DNA of 64,000 nt from contig NZ_CP019450.1 in NCBI RefSeq assembly GCF_001983995.1, positions 2,418,001 to 2,482,000 of the forward strand. Reading direction: 5' to 3'. Position 1 is the stretch's first letter. Each line of letters opens with the position of its first letter. The translations under genes and the position numbers were made by a program. The notes under the pieces were generated by a model. That model made no database searches. It was not told where the DNA came from and saw only the letters and a list, made by a program, of their open reading frames with translations. This DNA comes from Halioglobus japonicus. Lineage in GTDB: Bacteria; Pseudomonadota; Gammaproteobacteria; Pseudomonadales; Halieaceae. Shown in pieces: positions 26,989-34,804 of the stretch.

Positions 26989-27075
26989 GCCCGGATGGTG
27001 AAATTGGTAGACACAGGAGACTTAAAATCTCCCGCCTTAATCGGCGTGCCGGTTCGATTCCGGCTCCGGGCACCA
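26989..27075 (+). tRNA. tRNA-Leu (TAA)
   Basis: An 87-base class II tRNA: acceptor GCCCGGA/TCCGGGC, D-arm GGTGAAATTGGTAGACAC, anticodon loop CTTAAAA (anticodon TAA), a variable arm CCGCCTTAATCGGCG, T-arm GGTTCGATTCC, encoded CCA. Its 3' end is the left boundary of the accessory island. Confidence 0.97.
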
Positions 27076-27076
27076 T
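27061..27076 (+). repeat. attL-like copy: 3' end of tRNA-Leu
   Basis: CGGCTCCGGGCACCAT here is repeated exactly at 34789-34804. The 16 bp are the tRNA 3' terminus plus one base, the usual target of tyrosine-recombinase islands. The matches end at both sides, so this is the complete shared core. Confidence 0.85.
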
Positions 27077-27256
27077 AAATATTAGGTTGATCTGATTCTT
27101 TATGATCTTGAAATTTTTGGCTCTATGTGACGCAGAACCAATGTAGACATCATGATTAACTGGAGGGCTTGATGTACCATTCGTCCTTGATATAGAAAGT
27201 TACCCGACCTGAAAATCCTTTTAAGATCGAGTCTAAACCAACGGTCCGCTCCCACC

Positions 27257-27928
27257 TCAAAGCCGACTTCCGGCTCCAGCTACTTTGTCCAAATCAACTT
27301 GCAAGCGAAACAGAATCATCGCGATTAGCACCAGAAATTCCGCGCCGGATTCAAAAATCTCTTCGAATACCTGGCCCGTCACATTGTGGAAAACGGGTAT
27401 CTGGTCGATCGCTTGCGATAGGAAAAACACAACCGCCCAGGCGAAGGCAAATATAGCCCAGGGTAGCTGCACCCGGAGCGAGCGCAGGAACACAGGTAGT
27501 TGTGCTTTCAGGTAACGGTACATTACGACGAGGAACAGGATGACGATCGCTGCGAGGAAGAGCTTTGTCGACAAGGGGATCATTTCATGTGAAAAGAAGC
27601 GCTTGAACTGAGTCGCCTTGGCGTGATCCGAGAGCTCGTAGTGATAATCAGCCTCGCGTAGTGCGTAGAACATCAGCAGATAGCTCAACTGCACATACGC
27701 TACCCTGCGCTCGCGGTCGAGTAGGGCAAACAGGCAGGCGAGGCCGAACGCAGTAAAGATTGCCGACTGTCCCGCCAGCTGAACTGGCCCCGCATCCTCG
27801 ATCAGTCGCTTAATTTCAAAGGAGTCTGGGATGCTGAGGAGCTGCCAGCCCGTAACTGCCATTGCAGCAAGCACTGCGCCCAGAACTAATATTGCCGCCA
27901 GCCGGGATGGACGAGGCGTCTCGTTCAT
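27257..27928 (-). CDS. Multi-pass membrane protein of unknown function
   Basis: A 223-residue protein with about six hydrophobic segments, among them LAAILVLGAVLAAMAVTGW, AIFTAFGLACLFALL, LFLAAIVILFLVVMYRYL and FAFAWAVVFFLSQAI. Conserved-looking polar residues between them are LREADYHYELSD and FHNVTGQVFEEIFESGAEF. I do not recognise the family. It is the first gene of the island after tRNA-Leu, pointing back towards it, with no obvious partner. Confidence 0.72.
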   Translation of the reverse strand: MNETPRPSRLAAILVLGAVLAAMAVTGWQLLSIPDSFEIKRLIEDAGPVQLAGQSAIFTAFGLACLFALLDRERRVAYVQLSYLLMFYALREADYHYELSDHAKATQFKRFFSHEMIPLSTKLFLAAIVILFLVVMYRYLKAQLPVFLRSLRVQLPWAIFAFAWAVVFFLSQAIDQIPVFHNVTGQVFEEIFESGAEFLVLIAMILFRLQVDLDKVAGAGSRL

Positions 27929-28100
27929 ATTATTTGGGTTCCCATAAATACTCGGGCTGCTTGATACAACTATAAAATATCAGCTGCATTATGTTTCAGC
28001 ACGATATTGCGGCTGCTTGCAGGCGAAAGCGGGCATTGAAGTGCTTAACTGGCCTAGGTATCCAGAAAGGTCCGCTATCACCTCTTAGCCGCCACTCATT

Positions 28101-28478
28101 TCACGGCGCTTGGAAAACGCAGTGCTCTTCGGTGAAGAATATGGTAGACCGCTCCATATCGATGAAACGAGCCTCATCTTCAGCCAAAATGGCGCTTGCC
28201 GCCTGTCCATTTTCTGTTTGTAGCGCTAGATCCAGTTCTTTACGGCTATCCCACCAAATCTCGGCGATACCGTCGAAACCTGAAATTTTCATCCCGCGTG
28301 CAGCGGAAACCTCATGTCCGAACTCACCGTCAACCGCATGACTTTGGACATAGCGTTTGATATTCAACGAAATTGTTTGAGAGGCTACAAGGGGACCATG
28401 ACTTTTGAGCCAGTAATCAAAGAATTCCTCATCTGAAAGACCTTTCTTCTTTCGTACACAGAAGATCATTTTCAACAT
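28101..28478 (-). CDS. EthD-domain protein
   Basis: A 125-residue dimeric ferredoxin-like barrel protein. The EthD pattern is visible: an N-terminal strand, LKMIFCVRKKKGLS, then DEEFFDYWLKSHGPLV, and later FDGIAEIWWDS and RSTIFFTEEHCVF. EthD proteins occur in ether or polyketide degradation and as monooxygenase-like enzymes; here there is no metabolic context. It faces left, divergent from the cassette region that begins some 200 bp away. Confidence 0.8.
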   Translation of the reverse strand: MLKMIFCVRKKKGLSDEEFFDYWLKSHGPLVASQTISLNIKRYVQSHAVDGEFGHEVSAARGMKISGFDGIAEIWWDSRKELDLALQTENGQAASAILAEDEARFIDMERSTIFFTEEHCVFQAP

Positions 28479-28588
28479 GTCGTTTTTGCTGCCTCGCTGT
28501 CCAGTCCTAGACTGTTCTAAAGATAGACCTAAGTCTGATTATAGGTGAAAGCGGTCGTTCTGGGTTGGGCTGGCTGATGTCAGCTTTC

Positions 28589-28631
28589 GTCCACAAAGCT
28601 GCCATTCACGTTGAAAAGGATTTTCGATGCA
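28589..28631 (+). repeat. Dispersed 43-bp repeat, copy A
   Basis: Starts GTCCACAAAGC and ends GGATTTTCGATGCA. It matches copy C (30498-30540) at 39 of 43 positions with no gaps. It lies just before the first cassette-type gene. Confidence 0.75.
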
Positions 28632-28672
28632 TGTAACACAGTTTTCTTTCCTCACCCGGATGGCAGGCTTCG

Positions 28673-28996
28673 ATGAACCCTGCCATTGATAAGCTGAAAG
28701 ACTATCTGGTCGAGCTTCAATCCACTGAGGTACTTGGCTCGATAGCCGACAGGGCTGAACACATAGGGTTAATCAATAGAATTGACACTGCTATTCAGCA
28801 ATTAGAACTATGCGAGAGTTACGGCATAACGGGTGGCTCCAAGTTCTTTACGCTGCCAGGTACTGGTGATCCAAATTATGACAATTATGTCGTTGCACAT
28901 GATTGTGAGTCACATAGGCCTGAGAATTGGGAGGAAGTTTTATTTGATGGAAGATCAATCAGACTTCAACAGGGCGACCTGGTCATCCAGAAATGA
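28673..28996 (+). CDS. Hypothetical protein, 107 residues (cassette-type gene)
   Basis: Unrecognised soluble, acidic protein; no signal or membrane segment. The first half is helical, with a pattern consistent with a coiled coil (KLKDYLVELQSTEV, HIGLINRIDTAIQQLELCE). The second half is beta-like and contains FFTLPGTGDPNYDNYVV. ATG 28673 has only a weak purine tract upstream. It is followed by repeat copy B and a GTTATGC junction box at 29073, so it is probably the first cassette in the array, although its own R'' box cannot be found. Confidence 0.6.
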   Translation: MNPAIDKLKDYLVELQSTEVLGSIADRAEHIGLINRIDTAIQQLELCESYGITGGSKFFTLPGTGDPNYDNYVVAHDCESHRPENWEEVLFDGRSIRLQQGDLVIQK

Positions 28997-28999
28997 CAG

Positions 29000-29046
29000 C
29001 TTTTGGCCCCAAAGCGGCCTCTCGGATTGAAAGGAATTATGATGAA
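29000..29046 (+). repeat. Dispersed repeat, copy B (diverged)
   Basis: Begins CTTTTGGCCCCAAAGCGG and continues with a GATTGAAAGGAATT stretch that aligns with the GTTGAAAAGGATTT part of copies A and C. About 25 bases later it reaches AGCTGTTATG, which also ends the segment after copy C. Confidence 0.6.
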
Positions 29047-29072
29047 CGCTGACTGTCTCCAAGTAACCAGCT

Positions 29073-29079
29073 GTTATGC
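29073..29079 (+). repeat. Cassette junction box GTTATGC (R')
   Basis: Opens the cassette that carries the 133-residue gene. The R'' box at the end of that cassette (GCATAGC, near 29492) matches its reverse complement at 6 of 7 positions. Confidence 0.55.
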
Positions 29080-29095
29080 GCCCGGAGAGTAAGCT

Positions 29096-29497
29096 ATGCA
29101 CCTGAATTATCAATACGCACATCATTCTCATGACGAGTCGGAAGAGGCTGGATTAGTCGATGCTGCTGGAGCGCTCGAAGCCTTTGATACCTTTGATTGG
29201 GAAGGTCAGTCTGCTCTGGCTGAGGAGCTAGAGAAATGCTCTCCAACACTATCCCTGATTACGCTCCCCAAAAAAAATATGATATGGGTTTCTTCTTTCA
29301 AAAATGGCTCAAGCTTAACGTTTGTTTCACAATGCCTTTTCCCTGGCGAGAAGAAGCGTTGGTTTGGTCTTGGCACTAAACTCGGAACTATTAGTGTGGA
29401 TACTCAAAATTTTTCGACCGAAGAAGCTCGTAAGGCAATCGAACTATACGTTTCGGGCAACATGAACGAGCTAAGGTCTCTGTATGAAAGCGCATAG
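29096..29497 (+). CDS. Hypothetical protein, 133 residues (integron cassette gene)
   Basis: Unknown soluble protein. The N-terminal third is very acidic and histidine-containing (HHSHDESEEAGLVD), the middle is beta-like (LITLPKKNMIWVSSFKNGS), and the end is helical (FSTEEARKAIELYVSGN). GGAGAG stands 7-8 bp before ATG 29096, only 17 bp after the cassette junction, as is usual for cassette genes. It ends at the start of the next attC site. No family recognised. Confidence 0.65.
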   Translation: MHLNYQYAHHSHDESEEAGLVDAAGALEAFDTFDWEGQSALAEELEKCSPTLSLITLPKKNMIWVSSFKNGSSLTFVSQCLFPGEKKRWFGLGTKLGTISVDTQNFSTEEARKAIELYVSGNMNELRSLYESA

Positions 29498-29560
29498 CAA
29501 GGCGAGGCTTCGGGCAAAAGTACGCTCAGCGAACTTTTGCCGCAGCTCGCAGCGTTAAGT
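29490..29560 (+). repeat. attC site A
   Basis: Runs from the R''-like GCATAGC to R' GTTAAGT (29554-29560). Inside is a strong hairpin, GGCAAAAGT against ACTTTTGCC with an inner CGCT/AGCG pair. It follows directly on the stop of the 133-residue gene. Confidence 0.68.
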
Positions 29561-29603
29561 GTCTGGTGTGTTCATAATCATCAAATTCAGAGAGCTTGCA
29601 TAC

Positions 29604-29852
29604 ATGATCAATGTCTTCCTGTATGCATTGCGCGACGACTGGGAAAATGACCCGCCTGACTGTAGCCATTCATGGTGGGTCTACTCTACAGCGACGGATG
29701 ATCAAACCCTTGAAGTAGAATGTATAAAGTGCAAGACCCTAGGCAGGGTACTAGACCCGACCGAAAGTGAATGGAAAAAGGCTTTCTATGCGCCAGAGTG
29801 CCCCTATAAATGGCGGCAGGCAAACCGAGTCGATTTTTACCATAGAGGCTAA
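29604..29852 (+). CDS. Hypothetical protein with possible zinc site (integron cassette gene)
   Basis: Unrecognised protein of 82 residues if started at ATG 29604 (MINVFLYALRDDWEND); an earlier start at 29559 lies almost inside the junction box and is less likely but would add 15 residues. It contains DCSHSW, VECIKCKTLG and a further APECPY, an arrangement of cysteines and a histidine that could bind one zinc. It sits between attC sites A and B. Confidence 0.6.
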   Translation: MINVFLYALRDDWENDPPDCSHSWWVYSTATDDQTLEVECIKCKTLGRVLDPTESEWKKAFYAPECPYKWRQANRVDFYHRG

Positions 29853-29868
29853 TGGTGACCGTTGAAAC

Positions 29869-29961
29869 ACTTAACAAGGGCAGGCAGTACGCCCCTTTGG
29901 GGCCGGACGCCCAACCAGTGGCTTCGCCACTGCTCGGTCGCCGCTGCTGCAAGCGTTAGGC
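29869..29961 (+). repeat. attC site B
   Basis: R'' ACTTAAC (29869-29875) and R' GTTAGGC (29955-29961), 93 bp. The R'' box is exactly the reverse complement of the GTTAAGT box that opens this cassette at 29554. The centre folds on GCCCCTTTGGGGC and AGTGGCTTCGCCACT. Confidence 0.85.
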
Positions 29962-29973
29962 ATAAGGAAGAAC

Positions 29974-30381
29974 ATGGAATTTAGTTGGTCAGAGCTAGTA
30001 ACTGAAGTAGCAGGACTGTTTATGTCGGGTTCGAGTGCAGCCGATATATCATCTAGATTGGCTGGCTCGATATTAGTAGCAAGCGGTTCTGTGGTTCGTA
30101 TAGAAACAGATTCCACTATGAATTCTCCTTTTATCCAACTCAAGATGCCGCGAATAGAGGTGCCATTCAAAGATAAGTTCTTGATAGGTGACTTCTTGGC
30201 TTTAAACTTCACGGAACTAGATGACGATATGGTTAGAGACATAGGTGTTGGAGATCCATTGAGTTTTAAAACTAGAATCATTGAATCGAATGGACCATTT
30301 CCCGGCGTTGAGGTATCTGAGTTCGAAGATGAGCCAGAGATTTTAATAATGCTGGGCACGAGGGAATCGGAAATTGCCTAA
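29974..30381 (+). CDS. Hypothetical protein, 135 residues (integron cassette gene)
   Basis: Unknown soluble protein, strongly acidic at its C-terminus (FEDEPEILIMLGTRESE). The middle is predicted beta: SGSVVRIETDSTMNSPFIQL, then FKDKFLIGDFLALNFTEL. AAGGAAG lies 6 bp before ATG 29974, itself only 13 bp after the attC B R' box. The stop codon is inside the R'' box of attC C, as in compact cassettes. Confidence 0.66.
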   Translation: MEFSWSELVTEVAGLFMSGSSAADISSRLAGSILVASGSVVRIETDSTMNSPFIQLKMPRIEVPFKDKFLIGDFLALNFTELDDDMVRDIGVGDPLSFKTRIIESNGPFPGVEVSEFEDEPEILIMLGTRESEIA

Positions 30382-30470
30382 CAGGGCAAGGCAGGCGGAC
30401 TGGCTTACTGCCAGCCGTTGCTCGCGACGGTAGCGAGTGTCCGCTATTGGCCCCTTAGCTGCCGTTGGGG
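30376..30470 (+). repeat. attC site C
   Basis: R'' GCCTAAC (30376-30382) is the exact reverse complement of the GTTAGGC that opens the cassette at 29955. The site ends in CTTAGCTGCCGTTGGGG with an R' of GTTGGGG, which departs from the GTTRRRY consensus in its last base. A second candidate R' (GTTATGG) follows at 30567 after copy C of the dispersed repeat, so the true 3' limit is uncertain. Confidence 0.78.
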
Positions 30471-30497
30471 AATGTGGTAAATTTGAGGGCAAATAAC

Positions 30498-30540
30498 GTC
30501 CACAAAGCGGACATTCACATTGAAAAGGATCTTCGATGCA
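30498..30540 (+). repeat. Dispersed 43-bp repeat, copy C
   Basis: Starts GTCCACAAAGCGGAC, a small hairpin, and ends TTCGATGCA. It is 39/43 identical to copy A at 28589 and lies between the two candidate R' boxes (30464 and 30567). It could be an insertion in attC C or a gene-less mini-cassette. Confidence 0.75.
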
Positions 30541-30566
30541 CACTGACTTTTTCCATATACCTAGCT

Positions 30567-30573
30567 GTTATGG
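30567..30573 (+). repeat. Cassette junction box GTTATGG (R')
   Basis: Opens the cassette with the 74-residue gene. The R'' at the end of that cassette (CCATAAC, 30828) is its exact reverse complement. Confidence 0.75.
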
Positions 30574-30583
30574 TGCCTAAGCA

Positions 30584-30808
30584 GTGACTCACGACGCCAT
30601 AGATAGGGACTTCTATGAAGGGAAGAGAAGCGAGAGCTTCCCATTCTGCATAAATGACTCTGTAGCAATAAGGCGGGGACCTGGCATCGGTAAGGGTGCA
30701 GCTGTCGTAAGTATCGCTTCATACGCCAATCCGGTGGAATATCTAGTGGAGCCAGGAGATGGCTCTGGAGATCTAGTCGTTCCAGTAACTGATTTAGAGG
30801 CAATCTAA
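30584..30808 (+). CDS. Small KOW/SH3-like protein, 74 residues (integron cassette gene)
   Basis: GTG start at 30584, 11 bp after the junction box. The C-terminal two thirds look like a small SH3-like barrel: INDSVAIRRGPGIGKGAAVV then VEYLVEPGDGSGDLVVPVTD, the G-x-G-K-G pattern and strand lengths recalling KOW or related domains that bind nucleic acid or ribosomal partners. This is inference from pattern only; no exact family is recognised. The protein is acidic at its N-terminus. Confidence 0.6.
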   Translation: MTHDAIDRDFYEGKRSESFPFCINDSVAIRRGPGIGKGAAVVSIASYANPVEYLVEPGDGSGDLVVPVTDLEAI

Positions 30809-30827
30809 TCCTATGAAGAACCGGCCC

Positions 30828-30902
30828 CATAACAAGTCAAGGCAGCAAGGGCCCTGCGGGCCGGGACCGCTTTACAGCGGCCCCTGCTTGAAGCGTTATG
30901 TG
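30828..30902 (+). repeat. attC site D
   Basis: R'' CCATAAC (30828-30834), R' GTTATGT (30896-30902), 75 bp. Classical shape: AACAAGTCAAGGCAGCAAGG on the left pairs with CCTGCTTGAAGCGTT on the right, with GGCCCTGCGGGCC and CCGCTTTACAGCGG in the centre. Confidence 0.9.
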
Positions 30903-30917
30903 CCTGGAGATTAGTCC

Positions 30918-31181
30918 ATGAACGAAGCTTTGGGATCACTTAAGTGGATTGTAGGTTCCATCATTTTGTTTGTAGGGCTTTATCTCGGGGTTGAGGCCTA
31001 CAAATCTGGTGAGAGTGTTCTTGCCTCCCTTGGCGTGGCTGGTGCGGGCGTGGTCTGGCTTGTAGTAGCGGGCTTGCTTGGTGGTTCCGCGAGTTCTGGT
31101 GACGGTATCAGCCAAGAGGAATCCGAATATTATCGCTCGTCAGATGAAGATTCTCATCATGGTGACGGCTGGAATGTCTAA
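30918..31181 (+). CDS. Small two-helix membrane protein with acidic/His-rich tail (integron cassette gene)
   Basis: 87 residues with two hydrophobic helices (IVGSIILFVGLYLGVEAY and LASLGVAGAGVVWLVVAGLL), then a polar tail SQEESEYYRSSDEDSHHGD. GGAG precedes ATG 30918 at proper spacing. The cassette is framed by GTTATGT (30896) and its exact reverse complement ACATAAC (31185). No family recognised; a role in the inner membrane is the only safe statement. Confidence 0.68.
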   Translation: MNEALGSLKWIVGSIILFVGLYLGVEAYKSGESVLASLGVAGAGVVWLVVAGLLGGSASSGDGISQEESEYYRSSDEDSHHGDGWNV

Positions 31182-31184
31182 AGC

Positions 31185-31259
31185 ACATAACAAGTCGGTG
31201 TTGCCGCCTTTGGCTCGGACGGCCCACTGCGTGGTCCGCCGCAAACCGAGGCGTTAAAG
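31185..31259 (+). repeat. attC site E
   Basis: R'' ACATAAC (31185-31191), R' GTTAAAG (31253-31259), 75 bp. Left arm AACAAGTCGGTGTTGCCGCC and right arm GGTCCGCCGCAAACCGAGGC give the usual imperfect pairing with extra-helical bases. Confidence 0.88.
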
Positions 31260-31271
31260 TGCCTTAGTCCT

Positions 31272-31430
31272 ATGCTCGTAGCAAAGAGAAAACGTAGACT
31301 CCTCCTGTACGCGATGCTTGTCGGGCTATTGGCTCCATTCGCATACATTTTCTTTGCATCTGAGGGACAGCACGTAAACGAAGCGGCTCTCGAGCCTCAG
31401 CTGATGGACTCGCTGCCCCGAGAGAACTAG
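31272..31430 (+). CDS. Small membrane protein, 52 residues (integron cassette gene)
   Basis: Short gene beginning 13 bp after the R' box of attC E. It has a basic N-terminus (VAKRKRRL), one hydrophobic helix (LLYAMLVGLLAPFAYIFF) and a polar tail (ASEGQHVNEAALEPQL). The lysine/arginine cluster before the helix predicts an N-in orientation. No clear ribosome-binding site, but position and length fit a cassette gene. Confidence 0.5.
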   Translation: MLVAKRKRRLLLYAMLVGLLAPFAYIFFASEGQHVNEAALEPQLMDSLPREN

Positions 31431-31450
31431 AGGGCTATGTCTCAGATCGG

Positions 31451-31594
31451 ATGCTTCCTATGACGTTACCTCAAAAACTGTGGGCAAGTGCTGTAGTTTC
31501 CGTCGAGTTCTGGAAAATATATCTTACGTCTAGCGTCGTTGTAGGGCTTGTGGTTTGGGGTGCACTGCTACTTATTGTAAAGAGGGAGTCATGA
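31451..31594 (+). CDS. Small membrane protein, 47 residues (second gene of the same cassette)
   Basis: Follows the previous small gene by 20 bp and ends 7 bp before R'' of attC F. One helix, SSVVVGLVVWGALLLIV, flanked by a short N-terminal domain (LPMTLPQKLWASAVVSVEFW) and a KRES tail. Two tiny membrane genes in one cassette may act together. Coding status is inferred from length, hydrophobicity and placement only. Confidence 0.45.
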   Translation: MLPMTLPQKLWASAVVSVEFWKIYLTSSVVVGLVVWGALLLIVKRES

Positions 31595-31600
31595 TCGGCA

Positions 31601-31675
31601 CATTAACAAGTCAAGGCTGCAAGGGCGCTTTGCGCCGGGACGGCCTCACGGCCGCCCCAGCTTGAAGCGTTATAT
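31601..31675 (+). repeat. attC site F
   Basis: R'' CATTAAC (31601-31607), matching the expected CTTTAAC at 6 of 7 bases; R' GTTATAT (31669-31675). 75 bp, with AACAAGTCAAGGCTGCAAGG pairing with CAGCTTGAAGCGTT and a GC-rich centre GGGCGCTTTGCGCC. Confidence 0.88.
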
Positions 31676-31684
31676 GGCCTCGCT

Positions 31685-31975
31685 ATGATCTACTTGCAAT
31701 TTGAAGTAGAACCAAAATATGACTCTGATGAGAATGCGCAATATGGGGGCGCATACGTAAACTGCTGGATTAACCAGGCAATGCCAAAATCTGCTGAGGA
31801 GCAGGCTCGTCTAGATATTGAAAGCCATGGTTGGGCGATTCGCACACTCGAAGAGAAAAGTTTAGTTGCACGCGAAGATTATGCTGAAAGCGATAACCTC
31901 GAATACTATGAGCAGGCACTAATAGATGGTGAGGTCTATGTATTTCATACGTTTCCGCCGGAGATTTGCCACTAG
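31685..31975 (+). CDS. Hypothetical protein, 96 residues (integron cassette gene)
   Basis: Starts 9 bp after the junction box. Acidic soluble protein with an N-terminal strand (IYLQFEVEPKYDSDEN), a helix (SAEEQARLDIESHGWAIRTL) and a C-terminal strand ending YVFHTFPPEICH. The alpha/beta order suggests a small ferredoxin-like fold. I know of similar short proteins in integron cassettes but cannot assign a function. Confidence 0.65.
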   Translation: MIYLQFEVEPKYDSDENAQYGGAYVNCWINQAMPKSAEEQARLDIESHGWAIRTLEEKSLVAREDYAESDNLEYYEQALIDGEVYVFHTFPPEICH

Positions 31976-31996
31976 TGCGCTCTAAAATAGGCGGCC

Positions 31997-32057
31997 ATAT
32001 AACAAGCACAAGCAATCGGGGCCGCTGTACCAGCGGCCCTTGTTGTGGGCGTTATGA
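31997..32057 (+). repeat. attC site G (last of the array)
   Basis: R'' ATATAAC (31997-32003) is the exact reverse complement of the GTTATAT opening this cassette (31669). R' GTTATGA is at 32051-32057. 61 bp with a central GGGGCCGCTG/CAGCGGCCCT hairpin. No later R'' matches GTTATGA, so the array ends here. Confidence 0.85.
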
Positions 32058-32059
32058 AC

Positions 32060-32084
32060 GTCCGCTTTTGGCCCCAAAGCGGAC
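32060..32084 (+). repeat. Hairpin repeat related to the dispersed element, copy D
   Basis: Perfect 9-bp inverted repeat GTCCGCTTT / AAAGCGGAC around TGGCCCC. The same TTGGCCCCAAAGCGG core appears at 29003 and 34188. Confidence 0.75.
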
Positions 32085-32441
32085 ATCTGACTTACGGCAA
32101 TGCGTGCCCATTTTAGGCGAAAGTGGACAATATGTGAGGCTTTTTTCGTCGATCATTGAACTATACATGCCGTATAAACGGTATATACATTCCATGCCGT
32201 TAAAACTGTTTTGACGCGTCCTTTAGGGGCTAACGCTTATCACTGATGGGCGAAGCCCGCCAGATACCGCTTTGGATTGAGCAGGTGTGATGCTCTGAAT
32301 GCCTTTCTTCATCTTCATTCCCTCATTGGGATTTATATTTCGCGACTTGCAAGAGATCGAACATCCACCTTTCATCGCATGTAGCAATATTCAAGAATAT
32401 TTTCTCTAGTATTCCTATTAAAATTACCGCCGTCCCTCAAG
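32085..32441. other. Non-coding AT-rich stretch after the cassette array
   Basis: No supported gene. It holds the tail of repeat copy D, then AT-rich sequence with a GTATAAACGGTATATAC imperfect palindrome near 32170 and a short GGGCGAAGCCC hairpin near 32250. A GCTAAC near 32229 resembles an R'' box but no partner box is found. Confidence 0.5.
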
Positions 32442-33245
32442 CTACTGCATTTTCAAAAAGAGTCTGTTGTGCGTAAACAGCAAAACCGCTTTTGCCGGCG
32501 TCTTTCGGAGGATCAACAGTAATGACATGAAGTCTCCTCCGCAGCTCATAGCATGCCCAAGAGCAAAGGCAGCGATAAAGTACGCGGTTTCATGGCTAGT
32601 AAAGGCTGTAGCGATCATTGGCAGGACCGTAAGGAGCAGAAACGGCAGCATGAGGATGTAGGCCATCCTGCCGACTGAGAGCTCTGCAGAAAAGAACACA
32701 TACATCAGCAGACGCTTAGGCCAAACACCAAACCATAGACTCTCTCTAAAACGCGCAGGAACTGCAGCTGCATGGATACCCTCATGAAAGGGCGCCATCC
32801 AAAAGCCACCGATACCGGCTATCACATAATAAACCGGCTCATTCGGTGGAAGAATCCCGAGTAATTTAGATAAAACTGCGATCGGTGCGGCTACAAGTAC
32901 GCCTGCTGCGGTGCAAAGTACAACAAATGTTTTCGTTGAGACATCGTACGCGAGGGGCTTGCAGTTCTCGGGAACTTCCGGAGTTGGTATCGGCTCTGTT
33001 GTAATCTCACCCCATCGAAAATGAATCTCATCAGGTATACGAGGACTGAGAGGAATAGCTAGCACCAGAGCAACAAGTGCGGCAGGAATGTAAAAAGACC
33101 ACATCTGGAAGACAGCACCCCAGAGCTCTTTTATTTCAGGCGAGTCAAGACCAATGGTAAAGATGACGTGATAAGGCCCACACAGTATCTGATAAAAACA
33201 ATACAGAAAAGCCACTCTTGCTACCCATATTACTGCAACTTTCAT
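32442..33245 (-). CDS. Putative M50/DUF3267-like membrane metalloprotein
   Basis: 267 residues with about six membrane helices. A zinc-type motif H-E-x-x-H is seen in MAPFHEGIHAAAVP within a hydrophobic region, and a later GGDFMSLLLIL resembles the second motif of site-2-type or DUF3267 proteins. Between lies WFGVWPKRLLMYVFFSAEL. The family is thought to include membrane proteases, but activity here is inference. The gene lies on the opposite strand to the cassettes, beyond the last attC, so it is not itself a cassette. Confidence 0.66.
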   Translation of the reverse strand: MKVAVIWVARVAFLYCFYQILCGPYHVIFTIGLDSPEIKELWGAVFQMWSFYIPAALVALVLAIPLSPRIPDEIHFRWGEITTEPIPTPEVPENCKPLAYDVSTKTFVVLCTAAGVLVAAPIAVLSKLLGILPPNEPVYYVIAGIGGFWMAPFHEGIHAAAVPARFRESLWFGVWPKRLLMYVFFSAELSVGRMAYILMLPFLLLTVLPMIATAFTSHETAYFIAAFALGHAMSCGGDFMSLLLILRKTPAKAVLLFTHNRLFLKMQ

Positions 33246-33366
33246 CCTGAACTCCCAAGATCATTACACGCGCTACACTGGACGAGTACCTATATCGCAC
33301 ACTCTCATTTATATCTGCCTGATTAACTATTAAATAGCGGCACATGTAAAAGAAAGAAGGCGTCCT

Positions 33367-34094
33367 ATGAAAATAGCACTGCTTTCAAGCAAAAAAGCTT
33401 CGTCATATTGGCCACATAGCCCTGCGCTAAACGTCATTGTGAACGGAGATCTCATGCAGAGCTGCCGCTGTGTCTTCTGCAGTTCGATGAACTGACAGAG
33501 ATCCTCCGCTATGAGATCGGGCCTCTGCAGGGGAGCCTAAACGATCTATGCACGCTCGGAATCGGGAGTTGTTTTTCAGTACCGCTGGGCCGGGCGGCTG
33601 CGATTTTCCAATCCTTAGAATGCGCACACGCTATGGAAGCTATCGAAAATTTGGTGGTGTCGATTGTAAGTCTATTTGCTATCGCAATACACATAGCATT
33701 TTTGGTTGTACTCACTGTTCTCGTTGCGGGGCGATTACCCGTTATTGAAGGCGACAAAGTTGTGCTTTCAGGTGACGCTTATGTTTTCCCCATAGGGGAT
33801 AGCTAAGATCAAGTGCTGGCCGTCACCAAAGAAAAATACAGAGGGGAAGATCACTGTTTACAGATTCTATGGCCAATATCCGCTGAATACGCTGATGTGC
33901 TTGGACCTTACGAAAATACCCCCTAGAAAGAATATTCGGCTAAGGAGTTCGCAGAGCATAGAATCGGAGTCAGTAGAATAGAAGGAATGTTGGTACCCTT
34001 GATCTACAGCGATAGATGCGACAAAGATATGCACGCCACATGGGTTGACTCGACCTACTTAAATTTTGAATGCGAAGTACTATCAGGAATATAG
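33367..34094 (+). pseudogene. Decayed gene encoding a one-helix protein
   Basis: ATG 33367 with AAGG upstream opens a frame (MKIALLSSKKASSYW) that stops after 42 codons, but the neighbouring frame is open from 33420 and carries a convincing continuation: EILRYEIGPLQGSLNDL, a membrane helix SLFAIAIHIAFLVVLTVLVAG, then DKVVLSGDAYVFPIGDS. It is interrupted by TAA (33804) and TAG (33924), each followed in the same frame by protein-like sequence (QVLAVTKEKYRGEDHC; KEFAEHRIGVSRIEG), and ends at TAG 34092. One frameshift plus two stops in a single direction argue for a decaying gene. Family unknown. A shorter intact 57-residue piece (ATG 33633 to 33806) could still be translated. Confidence 0.55.
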
Positions 34095-34340
34095 AAGAGT
34101 ACGTGCTTGTTTGAGCGACCATAGTGATAGCAATCTCAGGCTACTTTGTTCGCAAGTGCTTTTGCGAGAAATATCAATGACTGCTATTGGCCCCAAAGCG
34201 GAACTTGGTGGGCCTGCATTCTAATCCCCGCTACCCGCCGCCAAGCCCAAGCCATGCCGCGGTATTACCCGGTGTAAAGCCACGGGGGCTTAGAGGTGGG
34301 TTCGAATGGGGCAGGGTTGGCGGCAATTGAGTGCGGGCCA
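34095..34340. other. Non-coding gap with repeat copy E
   Basis: No gene seen. CTGCTATTGGCCCCAAAGCGG at 34181-34201 repeats the core of the dispersed hairpin element. The remainder is GC-rich and without a supported reading frame. Confidence 0.55.
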
Positions 34341-34574
34341 CTAAGCCATATAGGTCACAATCCAGCCAGTTACGATTATCGCCCACAGGTACGTTATTCC
34401 TAGTTCGAGCGCGCGAATATTTTCACTCGTCTGAGTCAACCTTAAGCCGTCGATCGTTTCCAATTCAGCAAGCTTCTCGAAAAGATCGTCGACCTTGTCA
34501 ACTGACTCGCTTTGGCCTCCGGTCAGCTCCTTGACCTGGGATCCCAATTCTCTATTGCGCAAGCCTTTGCCCAT
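34341..34574 (-). CDS. Small C-terminally anchored membrane protein, 77 residues
   Basis: ATG 34574 is preceded by AAGGAG at 7-8 bp, so I prefer it over the longer frame that begins at 34754. The protein has a helical, coiled-coil-like middle (SVDKVDDLFEKLAELETIDG) and one C-terminal helix (ITYLWAIIVTGWIVTYM), a tail-anchored layout. Function unknown. It is the last gene of the island, 215 bp from the right-hand direct repeat. Confidence 0.65.
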   Translation of the reverse strand: MGKGLRNRELGSQVKELTGGQSESVDKVDDLFEKLAELETIDGLRLTQTSENIRALELGITYLWAIIVTGWIVTYMA

Positions 34575-34788
34575 CACTACTCTCCTTACTAGTGGTTGGT
34601 CACAGATAGCGTAAGGGGGTCGGGCACGCTCGAACATGTCCGTGGGCGACAAAAGGGTGTCCAGACACGCCAGCCGGTCATCCCGTACATGTGCGCACAT
34701 CCGCCCGCGCAGCGTGTTGCGCCGCATATCTATTGTCAGCATCCGTAACTTCATGTTCTCATCATCGAAGTCTTCAAGTTGCTAGGGG

Positions 34789-34804
34789 CGGCTCCGGGCA
34801 CCAT
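34789..34804 (+). repeat. attR-like copy of the tRNA-Leu 3' end
   Basis: Exact 16-bp duplicate of 27061-27076 without any tRNA in front. It defines the right end of the island, about 60 bp before the dUTPase start. Confidence 0.85.

Follow-up and report, generated by a model that had tools for sequence, protein, structure and literature searches.

An integrase-less cluster of attC sites in Halioglobus japonicus is probably cargo of a second, palindrome-bounded array of gene units

Introduction

A cluster of attC sites lacking an integron integrase is termed a CALIN. The category is in use, and CALINs left by the loss of intI are described for other genera in at least one report (PMC12444791). 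Cassettes lying away from the integron platform are likewise known, as attG insertions and as cassettes with a partial attI, from what a second report says of them (PMC12901181). By what route cassettes come to lie at a distance from any intI is an open question. We analysed a 64,000-nucleotide stretch of Halioglobus japonicus DNA (contig NZ_CP019450.1, positions 2,418,001 to 2,482,000), referred to below as the window, in which a first-pass annotation had reported one CALIN-like array between 29,073 and 32,057. The array is composed of two sub-arrays, and we consider it probable that this CALIN is nested in a second, palindrome-bounded array of cassette-like units, with a recombinase of about 207 amino acids (aa) as candidate enzyme, and that it was brought to its present position within an island at a tRNA-Leu gene.

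The source genome was searched as a whole (4 contigs, 99.98% complete). Seven congeners, G001 to G007, were compared with it, the source genome being grouped with G002 in one genus. We take G002 to be Halioglobus maricola, since its 207-aa recombinase matches a protein of that species at 100% identity, and refer to it by that name. G024 belongs to a different genus, and G163 to a different family of the same class. Fetched loci are given L numbers.

Results

Seven attC-like sites had been claimed for the array, and six of them were borne out, whereas the site ending at 30470 failed as attC. Folding of the bottom strand gave hairpins at six of the seven sites (z −1.5 to −5.1), and R'/R'' boxes, paired L arms and an extrahelical base are present at the same number, the site at 30376-30470 being the exception. 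The weakest of the six folds is that of 31185-31259, for which 14 of 200 shuffles fold equally well. We aligned nine attC, namely the six from the window and three from another array of the same genome, under a structure written by hand. All eight pairs of the inner arm show double-sided changes, and 96.3% of the inner-arm cells pair, a value reached by none of 500 shuffles. Sliding the partner by 1-3 columns lowered pairing to 29-40%, a control that is lenient because the structure was derived from the very sequences aligned. Four of five covariation measures were reached by 0/500 shuffles, and further pair types by 27/500.

A covariance model, R1, was built from the nine attC, all of which are from the source genome. 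Run over the whole genome it listed the six window attC, as expected of training members. Outside the training set, R1 matched 25 sites near the intI of congeners (14 in G001, five in G005 and six in G007; E up to 0.1). It found no sites near the intI of G004 or G006, the contigs of which stop on the attI side, and no attC in seven congener stretches around the dUTPase gene that flanks the island. One could envision that hairpin-rich intergenic DNA merely resembles attC by chance, as the failure of 30376-30470 and the only moderate folding of 31185-31259 might suggest; this is contradicted by the covariation in eight of eight inner-arm pairs, by the box pairing described below and by the R1 matches beside congener intI, and we regard it as extremely improbable.

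A z of −0.55, with 54 of 200 shuffles equally good, and the absence of an R1 match speak against a long attC ending at 30470, and this possibility was rejected. The site keeps an L' arm and a good R' box, GCCTAAC, which pairs with GTTAGGC of the preceding cassette. From about 30436 onward, however, the sequence is a dispersed repeat and not an attC arm, so that the right half of the cassette 3 attC is missing.

The first-pass annotation had also pointed out that the box opening each cassette pairs with the box closing it. All seven pairs are present, five exact and two at six letters, for a total of 47/49 letters. Among the 5040 possible orders of the boxes, the true one included, the total was reached by one and the count of exact pairs by two. 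The pairing holds, therefore, but two of the opening boxes, at 29073 and 30567, are ends of a dispersed repeat rather than ends of attC. We refer to the sequences that end in these boxes as leaders A and B; leader B matches the R' of its first cassette at 7/7 letters and leader A at 6/7. The same comparison was made for 12 chosen leaders with a following attC, of which eight are from four loci of the source genome and the rest from H. maricola, G004 (two) and G024; the set does not include the runs of L039, L102 and L103, and it counts one unit twice, as the copies in L037 (plus strand) and L047. In these 12 pairs, 67 of 84 letters match and four pairs are exact. Of 20,000 permutations, one reached the total and 22 the exact count.

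That no IntI gene is visible, as had been noted for the window, extends to the entire genome: TIGR02249 gave six matches, none above the cut-off, and these come from four proteins, namely XerD, XerC and a further two tyrosine recombinases. Among the eight genus genomes (the source genome counted), four have intI above the cut-off and a fifth, G007, has a partial copy; no intI match at E ≤ 1e-50 was found in the source genome, H. maricola or G003. A complete integron, with intI beside attI and array, is not what is found here. Since six attC lie in a stretch of 2.6 kb and no intI was found in any of the 4 contigs, the array is almost certainly a CALIN, as it had been labelled. It had been taken for a single one, however, when it consists of two sub-arrays with separate attI-like starts, and the second, repeat-bounded array around it had been overlooked.

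Each of the two sub-arrays begins at an attI-like box (29073, 30567) that is located on the dispersed repeat. The copy at 30436-30573 has 17 BLAST matches in the genome, its own counted, and the element or leader was detected by BLAST in 6/120 family genomes (own counted; G102 weak). At its right end, at 30567, the element reads CCATATACCTAGCTG followed by TTATGG, whereas the attI of G005 reads CTATATACTTAGCTG followed by TTAAAG. The core of leader B agrees with this attI at 17/19 bases, a score equalled at none of 149,992 background positions of genus DNA. Leader A agrees at 14/19 bases with the attI of G004 and of G007 (again equalled at 0/149,992 positions), at 13/19 with that of G005, at 12/19 with that of G006 and at 10/19 with that of G001. 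We treat the starts at leaders A and B as putative attI sites. An alternative is that an integron integrase inserted the cassettes off target, at attG sites, and that the leader is merely a favoured attG. Cassette insertion by IntI at attG sites is known, at least from the account in PMC12901181, and the likeness between leader and attI spans only about 19 bp and is close in one congener only. Random attG sites would not be expected to share a core, however, and the leader core is repeated in 12 leaders with between 11 and 17 of its 17 bases, besides the 17/19 agreement of leader B with the G005 attI. We think that off-target insertion is improbable.

The left part of the dispersed element is a 25-bp palindrome, GTCCGCTTT-N7-AAAGCGGAC, which falls into two classes by its centre, TGGCCCC in class 1 and CGTCCAC in class 2. 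A weight matrix, trained on the same host regions that it was used to count, found 78 palindromes in the fetched host regions, as compared with none in shuffles at thresholds of 12 or more and two at 10. It found none in the 56 kb of the window outside 27-35 kb. Eleven loci have three or more palindromes and make up 12 arrays, L037 holding two divergent ones. In 12/12 arrays the palindromes are co-oriented and the first is of class 2; the arrays are not all independent, because a composite-transposon head is common to four of them and one unit to L037 plus and L047. Class 2 sites also occur internally in four loci, always 49 bp downstream of a class 1 site. In L031 and L035 together, exactly one open reading frame (ORF; at least 60 aa) lies in 19 of 26 intervals; three of the others have no ORF (two of them are 49-bp gaps), two have two and two have seven. 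A palindrome stands 2-3 bp beyond the attC in 11 of 27 attC rows, in each case the last of its run (the palindrome of L047 is degenerate). The palindrome pattern was seen in 6/120 family genomes, own counted. A further class 1 palindrome lies beyond the cassette array, at window 34179-34203 near the island's right end. Another short inverted repeat, ATTCCCGCnTTCGCGGGAAT, was observed beside palindromes in L032 (about 6290 and 4905), L039 (about 6040) and L041 (about 5150).

The units between palindromes recur. The window unit at 28588-29023 has two further copies in other arrays of the genome, at 99% and 95% identity, and the copies end inside palindromes. We compared the palindrome regions of the source genome, H. 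maricola, G004, G006 and G024 by all-against-all BLAST (blocks of at least 150 bp and at least 80% identity), which yielded 47 blocks with 93 usable ends. A palindrome centre is found within 20 bp of 47 of these ends, which are not independent of each other, as against 16% of random points, and within 40 bp of 50 of them, as against 25%. Four blocks common to the source genome and G024, at 92.8-98.7% identity, terminate on both sides no more than 16 bp from a centre; a fifth, at 94.8% identity, begins at an attC, and further blocks that lack palindrome ends are 82.8-97.9% identical. The two host genes flanking the island are 72-79% identical within the genus. Because the palindrome-ended blocks are so much more alike across genera than these host genes, the units appear to move between genera, as judged from the sequences compared.

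A composite element was found in four copies (L031 889-12921, L035 15301-6008, L036 2061-5938 and L038 12286-7737), with a 605-aa Zn-ribbon protein at its head, palindrome-bounded cargo and a tail of about 180 bp with a terminator. In the L036 copy, the inverted-repeat ends were read by eye, and the copy appears to be inserted in the loop of a host transcription terminator. The 605-aa protein matches the IS1/IS1595 Zn-binding domain NF050000 at 28.8 bits, against a cut-off of 28. As a general enzyme of the arrays it was dropped, since it heads only four of the arrays seen; in Kangiella spongicola, the one named relative obtained in a genome scan, no attC and no convincing palindromes were found. 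Reverse-transcriptase-like fragments (YMDDW or neighbouring residues) were noticed in L032 (8377-8793), L039 (8189-8761) and L103 (13365-13769), and in several arrays such fragments adjoin a repeated protein of about 370 aa with a PVPIPSLLL-type hydrophobic segment.

One could also envision that the window holds an ordinary CALIN left after loss of intI, that the palindromes are inert repeats of the repetitive extragenic palindrome (REP-like) kind, and that shared units spread by homologous recombination or transposition. CALINs following intI loss are known in other genera according to the report cited above (PMC12444791), several arrays are borne by the four composite transposons, and repeats of 25-130 bp might permit rare homologous exchange. 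This hypothesis, however, leaves unexplained why the palindromes are uniformly oriented with class 2 first in 12 of 12 arrays, why the intervals mostly hold one ORF (the 19 of 26 above), why blocks shared across genera end at palindromes, why attI-like ends are carried on the repeats, and why palindromes lie beside a tyrosine recombinase in distant lineages, with an array found blind at both loci of G163, as described next. We consider it unlikely, if less so than off-target insertion.

A candidate enzyme for the palindromes was found at L037 (9526-10148, minus strand), where a broken 207-aa tyrosine recombinase gene, the pieces of which were searched separately, lies between the two divergent palindrome arrays at 1.62 Mb. 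In H. maricola an intact 207-aa recombinase (PF00589) lies between two divergent CGTCCAC palindromes. Relatives at E ≤ 1e-40 are present in 9/274 genomes of the class and 57/398 of the phylum (own counted in both); at least 7,991 proteins, among 8,000 scored, match at E ≤ 1e-30, and family matches were obtained in 357 of 72,556 plasmid records. In G163 (L159 and L160), both recombinase copies end about 28 bp before a palindrome with the centre CGGCGCA, and each copy is then followed by seven co-oriented palindrome matches. At one of these loci, six of six intervals have one ORF, as do eight of nine in the opposite array there. The attC model gave no matches on three G163 stretches. In L162 (3618-6437), which holds a recombinase relative of genome G773, there are four minus-strand matches to the attC model (E 5e-6 to 1e-3), possibly another case in which attC, as predicted by the model, and this recombinase family co-occur.

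The association was also examined blind, by taking 25-mers from the 250 bp beyond the recombinase gene and counting them within the locus. Seven copies were obtained at both G163 loci, as compared with a shuffled maximum of one; elsewhere, the count was 2 or 3 in seven other distant genomes, 2 in H. maricola, and 4 and 2 at the pieces of the broken copy. The specific motif GCGGWCATT occurs within 400 bp 3' of the gene at seven loci, spanning six genomes including the source genome, against 0.12 in shuffles (maximum 2), and AATGWCCGC within 400 bp 5' of it at 5/43 loci (shuffles 0.16, maximum 2). Generic 3' palindromes number 16 over 42 loci, against 1.95 in shuffles, although many of them may be terminators. 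From the blind and motif counts we conclude that the association of recombinase and palindromes is real in some lineages and is not seen in most. The idea that palindromes lie beside every relative of the 207-aa recombinase was rejected. The candidate may be the enzyme of the palindrome array; on the sequence evidence, we give this an even chance.

The cassette array and its palindromes lie within a 7.7-kb island between the tRNA-Leu gene and the dUTPase gene, with a GC content of 0.46-0.52 as against about 0.59 outside. In H. maricola the dUTPase gene follows directly after tRNA-Leu, and the island is absent. The gap between the two genes is variable in G003, G004, G005 and G007, with no palindrome or attC matches in the fetched stretches; palindromes lie upstream of the dUTPase gene in G006 (L100), and the stretch fetched from G001 gave no tRNA match. 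No recombinase gene was recognised among the island ORFs searched; these included seven further small ORFs, six from the right part of the island, that were compared with Pfam. An Rfam scan returned four tRNAs and nothing else. No confident family was assigned by a Pfam search of eight array ORFs and an NCBIfam search of seven. The ORF of cassette 3 has two database matches, of which one is apparently its own protein and the other an outside relative at 56% identity. The features are listed in Table 1.

Table 1. Features of the island and of the arrays within it (window coordinates)
Feature	Position	Strand	Remarks
tRNA-Leu (TAA)	26989..27075	+	
Left direct repeat	27062-27075	+	last 14 bases of tRNA-Leu, GGCTCCGGGCACCA
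Island	27076..34803	.	7.7 kb, tRNA-Leu to dUTPase gene
Palindrome, class 2	28579..28603	+	centre CGTCCAC; first of its array
ORF, 107 aa	28673..28996	+	
Palindrome, class 1	28995..29019	+	centre TGGCCCC
attI-like end of leader A	29058..29079	+	opening box GTTATGC at 29073-29079
Cassette 1 ORF, 133 aa	29096..29497	+	no Pfam/NCBIfam match
attC 1	29492..29560	+	folding, model R1
Cassette 2 ORF, 97 aa	29559..29852	+	
attC 2	29868..29961	+	folding, model R1
Cassette 3 ORF, 135 aa	29974..30381	+	
attC 3, left part only	30376..30435	+	R' GCCTAAC and L'; right part replaced by repeat element
Dispersed element	30436..30573	+	class 1 palindrome (30439), class 2 palindrome (30488), leader B
attI-like box closing leader B	30567-30573	+	GTTATGG
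Cassette 4 ORF, 74 aa	30584..30808	+	
attC 4	30827..30901	+	folding, model R1
Cassette 5 ORF, 87 aa	30918..31181	+	
attC 5	31185..31259	+	folding, model R1
Cassette 6 ORF, 52 aa	31272..31430	+	uncertain
attC 6	31601..31675	+	folding, model R1
Cassette 7 ORF, 96 aa	31685..31975	+	
attC 7	31997..32057	+	last of the array; R'' box, then 2 bp, then class 1 palindrome
Palindrome, class 1	32060..32084	+	perfect, GTCCGCTTTTGGCCCCAAAGCGGAC
Right direct repeat, 14 bp	34790..34803	+	repeat of the tRNA-Leu 3' end

Discussion

We propose that each sub-array was built by integron recombination, in which cassettes would have been joined to the leader boxes (29073 and 30567) between G and TT. The acting enzyme would have been an integron integrase of the kind that some congeners still carry. 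A palindrome close to AATGTCCGCTTT-N7-AAAGCGGACATT forms the left part of the dispersed element, and the attI-like sites lie at its right end. Because the units between palindromes, most of them with a single gene, recur as discrete blocks both elsewhere in the genome and in another genus, the CALIN would itself be cargo, carried by a second cassette-like array in which CGTCCAC may be the centre of the start site and TGGCCCC that of the unit site. Such nesting of the CALIN in the unit array is, in our judgement, very probable. The likely second enzyme is the tyrosine recombinase of about 207 aa found beside such palindromes in some other lineages; the palindromes would then be its crossover sites. 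The whole set would have arrived at its present position within the island at tRNA-Leu.

Several observations weigh against this proposal. Only the attI of G005 is close to leader B, those of G004 and G007 agreeing with it at 13/19 bases and those of G001 and G006 at 10/19, which is the background level. The box pairing is poor at five of the 12 leaders (5, 5, 5, 4 and 2 of 7 letters). A search of the fetched loci for an empty leader site found none, and the lone match to a leader-palindrome junction was unrelated. In the runs of L095, L098 and L099 no clear palindrome follows the final attC, and the coexistence of the centres TGGCCCC and CGTCCAC is unfavourable for plain crossover by a tyrosine recombinase. 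The copy of the 207-aa recombinase in the source genome is broken. At most of the relatives examined no such arrays were found, G163 being the only one of eight out-of-family genomes that has them, and no more than 7/43 loci have GCGGWCATT in the 400 bp 3' of the gene. At the second G163 locus, exactly one ORF is present in only three of six intervals; the unit ORFs of G163 are antiparallel to the recombinase gene, whereas in H. maricola they are parallel to it on one side. Finally, 46 of the 93 block ends fall elsewhere than palindromes. By our reading, these remaining ends are mostly those of the four composite transposons, of blocks with the ORF of about 370 aa or the reverse-transcriptase fragments, and of host flanks. 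Since some arrays are carried on the four composite transposons, transposition moves units too.

A broader hypothesis is that Pseudomonadota possess a second integron-like system, with a tyrosine recombinase of about 207 aa, palindromic sites of the form AATGWCCGCTTT-N7-AAAGCGGWCATT, co-oriented arrays of mostly one-gene units, distinct start and unit centres, and no attC. In the Halioglobus group the two systems would be nested, an attI being carried on units of the second. We find this hypothesis as easy to doubt as to accept. If the palindromes are indeed crossover sites of a small tyrosine recombinase, they would represent a second natural cassette system. Because attI would be carried on units of the second system, integron cassettes could spread as its cargo. 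The scattered arrays with common attI-like starts, together with the repeat family, suggest a concrete route by which cassettes may come to lie far from intI, namely copies of attI on other mobile units. Among the literature matches listed, none described an attI-like site multiplied on palindrome-bounded units, palindrome arrays with a 207-aa recombinase, or the relatives of this recombinase, and those that matched the palindrome motif appear unrelated. CALINs are already known; a second cassette-like system that carries one would be new, with its enzyme as yet a candidate.

How does the locus compare with described systems? It resembles a CALIN in having two or more attC sites and small ORFs on one strand with no intI. 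It differs in its attI-like starts on a dispersed repeat, in its two sub-arrays, and in bounding palindromes that also bound units free of attC. With the chromosomal integrons of the congeners G001, G005 and G007 it shares the attC family, as recognised by one model, and with G005 the attI core; here, in contrast, there is no intI, the arrays are short and scattered over several loci, and the attI of G001 is unlike the leaders. The delta-attI cassettes and attG insertions, as far as they are set out in PMC12901181, similarly involve a partial attI off the platform in cassette exchange, whereas the partial attI reported here belongs to a dispersed repeat family and heads the runs, in a genome that lacks intI. 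The pdif/dif modules of Acinetobacter plasmids are also gene units bounded by short inverted-arm sites of tyrosine recombinases. In our case, the sites are co-oriented within each array, the arrays are chromosomal, the candidate enzyme is the recombinase of about 207 aa and not XerC/XerD, and the palindrome arms are not dif-like when compared by eye. Finally, the composite element resembles IS1/IS1595-type transposons with passenger genes in the IS1/IS1595 Zn-binding domain of its 605-aa protein. Transposases of that type are much shorter than 605 aa, and the element of the 605-aa protein is distinguished by its palindrome-bounded cargo.

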